Source: Lentibacillus persicus | Lineage (GTDB): Bacteria > Bacillota > Bacilli > Bacillales > Amphibacillaceae | Reading direction: 5' to 3' | Assembly: GCF_900112705.1 (NCBI RefSeq) | Contig: NZ_FOMR01000004.1 | Span: forward strand, 248,001 to 312,000 | Length of the DNA: 64,000 bases | Shown here: positions 15,149-58,635 of the stretch, in pieces | Position numbering within the stretch: position 1 is the first letter of the stretch | Layout: each line of letters opens with the position of its first letter | The notes under the pieces: model-generated | Seen by the model: only the letters and a program-made list of their open reading frames with translations | Database searches by the model: none | Told to the model about the DNA's origin: nothing | Made by a program: the position numbers and the translations under genes

Positions 15149-15397
15149 AAAGAGGCTGGGACAAAAGGTTTGAAAGTAAAGGAAAAGACGAACGATTATT
15201 AGGAAAGGAAGCGGGATACACCGCTCCGGAAATATGCTTCGCTTTCCGCGGGCGGCTGGTGAGCCAACTCGTGCCAAGGCACTTCCTTGTCTCACCTATG
15301 CCTCTCTTCCCGCAGGAGTCTACGCATATTTCCTCCGCTAAGCTTCATTATCGTTCGTCTTTTATATTGGATATATAAGTTATGTCCCAACCTCTTT
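15149..15397. repeat. Nested palindromic repeat element between tmcAL and ylbL
   Basis: 249 bp filling the space between two convergent genes. Outer inverted arms: AAAGAGGCTGGGACA (15149-15163) pairs with the complement of 15383-15397; a second arm AAAGACGAACGAT (15184-15196) pairs with 15350-15362. Nested inside is a 106-bp imperfect palindrome (15228-15333) bounded by GGAAATATGC and its complement and containing the GACTCCTGCGGGA / CCGCGGAAAGCG motif pair. The same 106-bp unit, reversed, occurs at 58428-58533; the left 56 bases recur identically at 43105-43160. T-runs at both outer ends suggest it also works as a two-way terminator. Confidence 0.85.
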
Positions 15398-15412
15398 TTG
15401 GCACCTAGTGGT

Positions 15413-19084: not shown

Positions 19085-19323
19085 ATCTTTATAAATTCGC
19101 AAGTATCTGCCGCAAATCATTTAGAGAATTTATGTATATAAAACGTTCCACTGTCCATAATAACATAATGAAACAGCACAAAATTGCTTGGCTGTTTCTA
19201 AAACACGGAGAAGACTTACACTTCCCCATAAGTTCTTCCTCCGGTTTCTCCTCTCCCTTTGCCTTTTTGTTTTCTTACAAGAAAACAAAGGGACCTGCAG
19301 AAAAATATTCTGCAGGTTTTTTT
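19085..19323 (+). ncRNA. Candidate small RNA ending in an orphan terminator
   Basis: On the plus strand a TATAAT (19073-19078, weak -35) is followed about 180 bases later by two tandem hairpins: one built on CTTTGTTTTCTT-type arms (about 19256-19291) and a strong terminator ACCTGCAGAA/TTCTGCAGGT (19293-19302 with 19308-19317) followed by seven T. No credible plus-strand gene lies upstream, since rsmD and ylbG are both on the minus strand. A small transcript would explain the terminator; the promoter call is weak. Confidence 0.3.
19089..19229 (-). CDS. Possible 46-aa membrane peptide, unknown
   Basis: ATG 19227-19229 is preceded by GGAGG at exactly 8 bases, one of the best ribosome sites in the window. 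The product is 46 aa: polar start MGKCKSSPCFRNSQ, a hydrophobic stretch AILCCFIMLLW (about 15-25), and a polar tail, with four cysteines. I do not recognise it. It lies in the 338-base gap between ylbG and rsmD, antisense to the candidate plus-strand RNA with an orphan terminator. Only the ribosome site supports it; there is no family evidence. Confidence 0.3.
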   Translation of the reverse strand: MGKCKSSPCFRNSQAILCCFIMLLWTVERFIYINSLNDLRQILANL

Positions 19324-19354
19324 CTATGCTATAAAAAAGGCGGTATAAAACAGA

Positions 19355-20857: not shown

Positions 20858-20997
20858 TTTTTTCACCTCAGTAAACAATAACGCTTACTAATAATTTATG
20901 AAAATTAGGCACTCATTGTGAATCACCAGCAAATCTAGCGTCGTTAATAAAGGCTCATTTTGTAAACTTTGTTGCTTTGTAATCTTCGTAATATCCA

Positions 20998-21415
20998 TAA
21001 ACTGCGACGTAAAGTTTGATTGGATCGTTTGGGAAACTTTCTTGAGACGCAGCTGGAATATACTCGCTTTCCGTGGGCTCCCCACGAGCCTCCTCGTGAG
21101 CAAAAACCGCTCACTGCGGGGTCTCTTAGGCTCGCTGTCCCACAGGAGTCTCGCATATTCCAGCTGCTTACGTGAGTGTTTAAATAACGTTGCATTACTC
21201 GTTAAACAGACAAAACTACAGTAAGCACTTTTTAGCGTAGGCAATATACGCAGACTCCTATGGGAACAGCACGTGTCCGAAGACCCCGCAAGAAAGCGGT
21301 CTTTGCTTTCTGAGGAGGTTGAGGCCGTGCCCATGGAAAGCGAAGTATATTGCCGGAGCGGCTTTTAATGCTTACCGAAATTAAGAAGGAAGAATTTTAA
21401 CTGGTTCGCAGTTTA
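20998..21415. repeat. Compound palindromic element with perfect inverted ends (copy 1)
   Basis: 418 bp between ylbC and ylbD, bounded by a perfect 10-base inverted repeat TAAACTGCGA (20998-21007) / TCGCAGTTTA (21406-21415). Inside are two palindromic units: 119 bp at 21049-21167 with 13-base perfect ends GCAGCTGGAATAT, and 115 bp at 21240-21354 with 10-base ends GGCAATATAC. The second unit is repeated in reverse at 58255-58369 with about 3 differences in 115. A similar compound element at 58205-58594 shares the left end and, in diverged form, the right end. No credible ORF; it behaves like a MITE or structured repeat. Confidence 0.85.
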
Positions 21416-21471
21416 CATCCAGTTCGAGACAGATAATAACAAGCTATGCGAAAATAGTTTTAAAGAAATGA

Positions 21472-44474: not shown

Positions 44475-44578
44475 AACTACCCTCTCCCTTTTTATTCTAT
44501 CTTATCATTAATGGACCGTTTGTTTCTAATTCGAGAAATAAAAAAACAACTGCACAAATGAAAATGCAGTTGAATGAT

Positions 44579-44592
44579 GAAAGCGCTGTTAT
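44579..44592 (+). promoter_or_regulatory. cre-like site inside the SR1 3' region
   Basis: TGAAAGCGCTGTTA fits the catabolite-response pattern TGWAANCGNTNWCA at 13 of 14 positions. It lies between the SR1P stop and the terminator, so CcpA could act only as a roadblock; it may be chance. Confidence 0.25.
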
Positions 44593-44600
44593 TTTTTGTT

Positions 44601-44705
44601 TTACTTCCCCCCACAAGTTGGGCAAACACTATAATATGTTGTCACTTTCTCATCATTAAAATGCTCAATCACTTTTTGGCAGTCCTGACAGACGATCGTT
44701 CCCAT
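44601..44705 (-). CDS. sr1P: SR1P, GapA-binding peptide
   Basis: 34 aa: starts MGTIVCQDCQKVIEHF and has two cysteine pairs, CQDC (6-9) and CPTC (28-31). The MGTIVCQDC start and DEKVTT middle are what I remember of the SR1P family. In B. subtilis SR1P binds GapA and promotes RNase J1 activity on it. Ribosome site AAAAGGAG 9-10 bases before ATG 44703-44705. Encoded inside the SR1-like RNA; rnjA is in the same window. Confidence 0.82.
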   Translation of the reverse strand: MGTIVCQDCQKVIEHFNDEKVTTYYSVCPTCGGK

Positions 44706-44747
44706 TTATCCCAGCTCCTTTTATATTAATTAGAATAAGTTATTTAT

Positions 44748-44776
44748 ATTATAATGTGACACATTTAAAAAATCAA
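44748..44776 (-). promoter_or_regulatory. Promoter of the SR1-type RNA
   Basis: TTGATT (44771-44776), 17-base spacer, perfect TATAAT (44748-44753) on the minus strand. The surrounding sequence is very AT-rich. Confidence 0.75.
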
Positions 44777-57949: not shown

Positions 57950-58204
57950 CCCTGTTCCTCCATACTGTGATTTGACAATAGTCTATCACAATGTGTCATT
58001 TCTGGCACTAATTTACCGACTGATTTTATTCAAACATTGTAACGATTTCGAGACAAAGGTTTCACCGTAATGTCACAGATACCTGTTTGAGGCAGTGTTG
58101 ATGTGTTTTATACTATCTATATAGGGAAAACTACCACCTGGGCATATAGCTGGAGATAATCATATATTTGATTGGCAGAAACGGTTGTTTGGGCACATAA
58201 CCCA

Positions 58205-58594
58205 TAAACTGCGACGTATCTTCAATAGAAGTTGGGTCTTCGGCTAACCGCTCCGGCAATATACTTCGCTTTCCATGGGCACGGCCTCAGCCTCCTCAGA
58301 AAGCAAATACCGCTTTCTTGCGGGGTCTTCGGACACGTGCTGTTCCCATAGGAGTCTTCGTATATTGCCTGCGCTGGGGATGCTTACTGTTTCTGTGGTG
58401 CTATGCGATCAAACCAACCATAGCGTAGGAAATACACGGAGACTCCAGCGGGAGCAGAGGCATAGGTGAGACACTGAAGTGCGCTAGCACGAAGGGGCTC
58501 ACCAGCCGCCCGCGGAAAGCGGAGTGTATTTCCGAAGCGATGTCATAGCAACTTACTGAAATCAAAAAAAGAATTTTCACCGGTTCTCACTTTT
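58205..58594. repeat. Compound palindromic element (copy 2)
   Basis: About 390 bp between the divergent ktrC and cydA genes. Left end TAAACTGCGA (58205-58214) equals the left end of copy 1 at 20998; the right end TCTCACTTTT (58585-58594) is a decayed version. Inside: a 115-bp palindrome (58255-58369) about 97% identical by eye to the complement of 21240-21354, and a 106-bp palindrome (58428-58533) about 84% identical by eye to the complement of 15228-15333. It lies upstream of cydA, so it may have altered that gene's control region. Confidence 0.85.
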
Positions 58595-58635
58595 CATCAA
58601 CTATGATGTTAAAGCGCATTAAGGTTTATAAGATC

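Follow-up and report, generated by a model that had tools for sequence, protein, structure and literature searches.

Palindromic modules within elements bearing IS1595-family-type ends in Lentibacillus persicus

BIMEs and REPINs consist of palindromes paired head to head, with exchangeable modules. The REP sequence itself, GTAG/CGTC-tagged, has a tetranucleotide foot; its palindrome is given as 20–40 bp in PMC3733652. In addition, the available part of PMC2267715 reports two stem-loop repeats of the intergenic type, Bhal-1 and Sta-1, of 74 and 105 bp, from B. halodurans and S. aureus. For the staphylococcal STAR repeats, the accessible portion of Purves et al. 2012 (PMC3532100) gives a repeat consensus and the start signature GTGGGACAGAAATGAT, and calls their function, origin and way of spreading unknown; the words ‘inverted’ and ‘secondary structure’ have no match in its main text as available to us. 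A composite element joining IS1595-type ends to paired palindromic modules was not found described in the literature searched, which is no proof of absence, and the part of PMC10969869 at our disposal does not mention IS1595.

Here, we analysed a stretch of 64 000 nucleotides of the L. persicus genome (hereafter the window), in which a preliminary description had reported a compound palindromic element present in two copies. The best explanation, which we hold to be very probable, is that both copies are IS1595-family MITEs carrying two palindromic modules (P modules) that would have been exchanged in place.

Boundaries of the element and origin of its ends

Copy 1 (20952–21459) would be a complete IS1595-family-type MITE of 508 bp from which a transposase gene is absent. 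Its outer ends are GGCTCATTTTGTAAACTTTGTTG, at 20952, and AACTATTTTCGCATAGCTTGTTA, read inward from 21459 on the minus strand, and it is bordered by the left (20944–20951, TTAATAAA) and right (21460–21467, TTAAAGAA) target-site duplications, which are identical at six of eight positions. Gene order suggests that the genes on either side are ylbD and ylbC. Of 11 relatives, five were read at orthologous sites, located via ten neighbouring protein fragments, and each of these five (G001, G005, G006, G008 and G010) has an empty site here, so that copy 1 is a young insertion. Similarly, the glmS site holds 512 bp in L. persicus (L002 1465–1976) against 3 bp between the flanks in G001. The empty sites that the preliminary description proposed to look for thus exist at both places, and alignment of the flanks leads to outer inverted repeats of the GGCTCTTTTCGTAAA..TTTGTTGC type and of the GGCTGTTTTCTAAAAGATTGTTG type.

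The preliminary description had instead taken as element ends the sequences TAAACTGCGA (20998–21007, plus strand) and TCGCAGTTTA (21406–21415, minus strand). Recomputation confirms that these are exact inverse complements; they are, however, subterminal partners at opposite ends of copy 1, lying 44–46 bp inside its true GGCT-type ends, and do not coincide with the insertion boundaries. Inside copy 1, TAAACTGCGA adjoins a stretch of the outer end that is partly complementary. Moreover, the 10-bp inverted pair is weak by itself, nine such 10-mer pairs being found 300–500 bp apart in the window: the signal beyond chance lies in the repetition and the folding of the element rather than in this pair. 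One could still suppose that mobility belongs to the TAAACTGCGA-bounded unit, which would have landed in a pre-existing outer GGCT repeat, as TAAACTGCGA is well kept in copies with decayed outer flanks and the exact 14-mer TAAACTGCGACGTA occurs at 17 places in the L. persicus genome. We consider this very improbable: the insertions at the ylbC and glmS sites are both longer than the TAAACTGCGA unit and the empty sites lack the outer sequence too, the 8-bp duplications are located at the GGCT ends, and the GGCT ends are common to IS1595 transposons.

Copy 2 (58160–58630, limits approximate and taken from the orthologous copy in G001) has decayed outer ends, the right one included, and retains TAAACTGCGA at 58205–58214 (plus strand). 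It is an older MITE insertion, at the cydA site, common to L. persicus and its relative G001, in which the interior is different.

The element is indeed repeated, as the preliminary description proposed to verify, with 68 matches in the L. persicus genome (40 of the 95 first-look candidates were scored) and matches in 12 of the 12 genus genomes. Target-site duplications were likewise recovered: across all 54 automatically paired elements, including the false-looking L001, L003, L033, L160 and L174, the flanking 8-mers are 66% identical versus 41% when shuffled (47% for the best of 300 shuffles), and 19 of the 54 agree at seven or eight of the eight positions. The duplication length peaks at 8 bp, lengths of 7 (49.7% versus a top shuffle of 46.0%) and 9 (45.5% versus 44.9%) being only slightly over. 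In keeping with IS1595-family MITEs, the elements are short, repeated and devoid of a transposase gene, with empty sites and with an 8-bp duplication discernible over the 54 elements, partial in copy 1 and decayed in copy 2. The strict form of the ends occurs in 26 of 159 family genomes (none for a reversed-pattern control), and a scan of viral contigs for one MITE end gave no match. A minimal element of 118 bp, with two ends nearly without P module, was observed in the relative G003 (L176 170–287).

The ends themselves point to the probable parent. A search of plasmids with these ends retrieved, in Niallia sp. Man26 (L228 3001–4765, plasmid NZ_CP095746), two ends of the first type, both CGTA/CGCA, flanking a passenger gene of the DinB family and a transposase that both Pfam PF12762 and NCBIfam NF033547 place in the IS1595 family, with the exact target duplication TTTAAAAA; copy 1 likewise has two first-type ends. 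Three chromosomal relatives, whose transposases show 64–67% protein identity, carry the GGCTNTTTTCGTA..TTGTTGCTTT type at one end and the GGCTGTTTTCTNAAAGATTGTTGTTT type at the other, one end of L231 starting with TGCT, and have exact duplications (ATAATTAA in L229, TTAATGAA in L230 and AAATCAAT in L231). In four IS1595-family transposons whose transposase frame is open, the same ends thus go together with exact 8-bp duplications, which argues for copy 1 being an IS1595-family MITE; at the level of sequence, the outer ends of both copies match those of IS1595-family transposons. A transposase relative at 58% identity (L232) contains stops and has similar ends, a matching duplication being absent, and relatives at 41–46% identity have a different end, GGCTCTGTTAAA or similar.

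At E 1e-10, a transposase of this IS1595 type was detected in 28 of the 159 family genomes and in none of the 12 genus genomes. In the genomes searched, the elements thus resemble IS1595 MITEs that no longer have a resident mover, and they were presumably moved in trans. The earlier proposal of a modular MITE moved in trans holds for the MITE, through the duplications, the empty sites and the IS1595 transposons with the same ends, movement in trans being a prediction; its companion idea of a transposase sharing the TAAACTGCGA ends does not hold, TAAACTGCGA being subterminal.

Other candidates were set aside. The GGCTCTT end and the 8-bp duplication, which we took to be indicative of ISL3, suggested that family as parent; PF01610 is found in seven of the 12 genus genomes and not in that of L. 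persicus, and the ISL3 ends differ in the three genus groups looked at. Wide pairs of ends in G010 (L174 and L175), considered as transposase carriers, enclose a nusG-like gene (by eye) or a short ORF between separate elements. Two further loci were observed: an IS1595-type element with similar ends and an apparently broken transposase on a Priestia flexa plasmid (NZ_CP040366; L225 3001–4303), and, in the L. persicus genome (L199 1743–3023), a transposase ORF of IS110-type appearance (by eye) approximately 240 bp from a MITE-like end.

Structure, arrangement and exchange of the P modules

The interior of copy 1 holds a P module of type A at 21046–21171 (plus strand; 93.1 bits with model R1) and one of type B at 21231–21362 (minus strand; 125.5 bits), whereas that of copy 2 holds a type B at 58247–58378 (plus strand; 128.6 bits) and a type C at 58419–58541 (minus strand; 114.0 bits). 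The palindromic units reported earlier within these modules were recovered as described, namely a 119-bp unit at 21049–21167 with 13-bp perfect inverted ends, a 115-bp unit at 21240–21354 with 10-bp perfect inverted ends, and a counterpart of the latter at 58255–58369 in copy 2, in reverse orientation and matching at 112 of 115 positions. The B modules of the two copies are 97% identical, and the outer flanks of the two copies approximately 50%. A fifth P module, C-like by eye (15220–15342, plus strand; 109.4 bits with R1), stands alone in a small frame with ends AAGAGGCTGGGACA / TGTCCCAACCTCTTT (15150–15398) that was missing from the preliminary description, so that the palindrome occurs at three places in the window. 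No clear target duplication was seen by eye for this GGCTGGGACA frame.

P modules measure 105–130 nt, and one type-C sequence matches 135 of the 159 family genomes, representing 42 of 46 genera, at up to 97% identity. They form a separate layer, far more widespread than the MITE ends and housed in frames of more than one kind; 13 loci surrounding IS1595-type ends or transposases yielded no P module, and a search of phages for the P module gave no match.

Their secondary structure is conserved, as the check by folding and covariance suggested earlier now supports. Of 85 representatives, 61 modules entered alignment A1 (MAFFT) and 40 entered A2; spurious regex matches and near-duplicates were removed by eye. 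A1 yields 27 pairs, with 91.5% standard pairs versus 71.3% in shuffled and 42–53% in slid alignments, and double compensatory changes at 21 of the 27; A2 is similar (93.8% paired, double changes at 19 of 28 pairs), its measure of ‘further pair types’ not exceeding shuffles (96 of 500 reach the same count). Eight folds were better than shuffles, with z from -2.7 to -7.3, and two of 200 shuffles fold as well as the B unit of copy 2. Once one invariant column pair is excluded, G-T wobbles in A1 (29) are not commoner than A-C (42), which fits, weakly, a DNA-level palindrome at least as well as an RNA. The structure predicted from A2 adds two nearly constant G-U column pairs, and the wobble argument for a DNA-level palindrome is weak for this reason.

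Within the window and 54 loci with paired elements or longer reads of these, scanned with R1, the modules are head to head in 30 of the 30 elements with exactly two separate P modules. This count leaves out elements in which fewer than two modules are present, as well as the overlapping hybrids L186 and L162. The three modules of L218 follow one another as plus, plus, minus; a cruder anchor count gave other orders in L218 and L209, in the latter of which R1 finds no module.

Other repeats are nested in P modules. A 66-nt repeat (GGGCCAACACGATGTTGG...TTAGCCTTTGAACC; e.g. in L009, L193, L174 and L191) was encountered at 14 distinct places among the loci examined, duplicates between overlapping loci being removed by eye, and its orientation with respect to P never varies; a variant also lies outside P in L017 and L047. 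A second repeat, of approximately 80–90 nt (GCTCGTCGTGTTGC... or its inverse), interrupts P modules in L004, L009, L015 and L183.

At fixed insertions, the module types seem to have changed. P types, assigned by eye here as elsewhere, differ between L. persicus and G001 at three of four orthologous insertions (cydA, rsmI and yqfL) and are identical at the fourth (icd). At cydA, L. persicus carries B and C, and G001 a short remnant with C and D arms. The mnmE site was left out of this count because its left insertion points differ, and the sigG, addB and coaE sites are empty or too short in G001. These differences suggest that interiors have been exchanged in place, and hybrid palindromes, whose left and right arms are of different types (yqfL in L. 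persicus, rsmI in G001), point to recombination in the shared core. The recent spread or gene conversion formerly invoked for the near-identical units finds support in two respects: copy 1 is a young insertion, and copy 2 is an older one whose interior differs in G001.

Taken together, an IS1595-type transposase acting in trans would bind the MITE ends and insert the element into AT-rich intergenic DNA, the payload being two P modules, i.e. long structured palindromes set head to head. Recombination in the near-invariant segments CTTTCC, CCTCCTC, GCGGGGTCT and AGGAGTC would then exchange and trim these modules in place, and their palindromy would be kept largely at the level of DNA hairpins.

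Distant relatives and possible nature of the P modules

At E up to 10, tsr24 (RF02577) is the only Rfam family that matches the stretch occupied by the element, with 23.2 bits for the B and 16.6 bits for the A module of copy 1, below its gathering cut-off of 50 bits. (Elsewhere in the window, two Rfam matches exceed their cut-off, both on the minus strand: the ylbH leader, RF00516, at 19203–19327, and the SR1 sRNA, RF02376, at 44541–44753.) Among 60 family genomes, tsr24 matches 50 at E up to 1 and none above cut-off, the best score being 48.7 bits; it matches none of 14 control genomes. Of the eight places at which a tsr24 pattern was found, seven belong to Staphylococcus lugdunensis or S. 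schweitzeri; the other, in Roseibium, looks like a chance match. Because R1 holds rows fetched by tsr24 similarity (L289–L308), a second model, R2, was made from 40 rows that exclude these; R2 finds six of the seven staphylococcal places (E 1e-12 to 4e-4) and not the Roseibium one. These comparisons support a homology, albeit distant, between P and tsr24, whereas membership of tsr24 fails on score. Among the few loci concerned, five of the six staphylococcal P relatives with both arms contain STAR-like repeats inside the loop. In addition, the STAR signature GTGGGACAGAAATGAT, as given in the available part of PMC3532100, is similar to the GGCTGGGACA end of the frame that houses a single P.

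The possible roles of P are, in our order of belief, a passenger hairpin, an RNA and a mobile unit of its own. That P modules are genes for a conserved, tsr24-like small RNA spread by the MITE would account for pairing kept by compensatory changes in both alignments and for the similarity to tsr24 and to the staphylococcal copies, the latter found by a model free of tsr24-selected rows. Yet all tsr24 scores stay below cut-off, the 23 copies of the L. persicus genome are spread over tandem (12), convergent (6) and divergent (5) gaps, and, a weak point given A2, the wobble counts of A1 do not favour the RNA strand; we consider this reading unlikely, and of the ‘structured RNA family’ first suggested, the structure of the inner modules and the distant homology are upheld, the RNA status being putative. 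Slightly less probable still, in our view, are independently mobile hairpins, either REP/RAYT-like or moving by single-strand transposition, that hop between frames. Such mobility would be consistent with the occurrence of P in at least two frames, with the fact that several genera have matches 92–97% identical to one type-C sequence and with the single orientation of the nested 66-nt repeat; but neither a clean insertion boundary nor a duplication of a lone P was seen by eye in 30 loci, the modules exceed the 20–40 bp that the accessible part of PMC3733652 gives for REP, and recombination explains the mosaics. As for a retron or another reverse-transcription-derived element, neither the retron reading nor the REP-like one raised at the outset found support, and we give the former next to no credence, since the ends, the duplications and the parental transposons are all of the IS1595 kind.

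A broader reading, in which P is a passenger of changing vehicles, is put forward only tentatively. P modules might constitute one superfamily of DNA hairpins in Bacillaceae and staphylococci, carried as pairs in IS1595 MITEs and singly in GGCTGGGACA frames, swapped at fixed sites, with a loop that is a preferred home for further repeats (the 66-nt repeat, STAR) and a palindromy maintained through hairpin-directed repair or transfer of DNA and not through an RNA function. If so, tsr24 and many staphylococcal STAR loci would belong to a superfamily of repeats instead of standing alone.

Comparison with known systems

The analysis names a likely mover for an abundant intergenic repeat, connects the palindromes of Bacillaceae with the sRNA tsr24 of Rfam and with the STAR loci of staphylococci, and provides orthologous sites for following, from one sister species to another, how modules are exchanged within a fixed insertion.

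P elements share with REP, BIME and REPIN the head-to-head pairs of palindromes and the exchangeable modules, but differ from them by units of 105–130 nt and by IS1595-type ends. Bhal-1 and Sta-1, as described, may represent the same P family. The S. aureus sRNA tsr24 presents conserved segments and helices in the same order as P, although its score is below cut-off wherever it was searched and the outer stems of P differ by type. The STAR loci approach P through the STAR-like repeats in the loop of staphylococcal relatives and through a signature resembling GGCTGGGACA, whereas the copies of Bacillaceae hold another loop insert. Finally, IS1595 transposons and MITEs are like copy 1 in both end types, in the 8-bp duplication and in the presence of related transposons within the same bacterial family; copies 1 and 2 are distinguished from the transposons by the absence of a transposase and by an interior made of two P modules.
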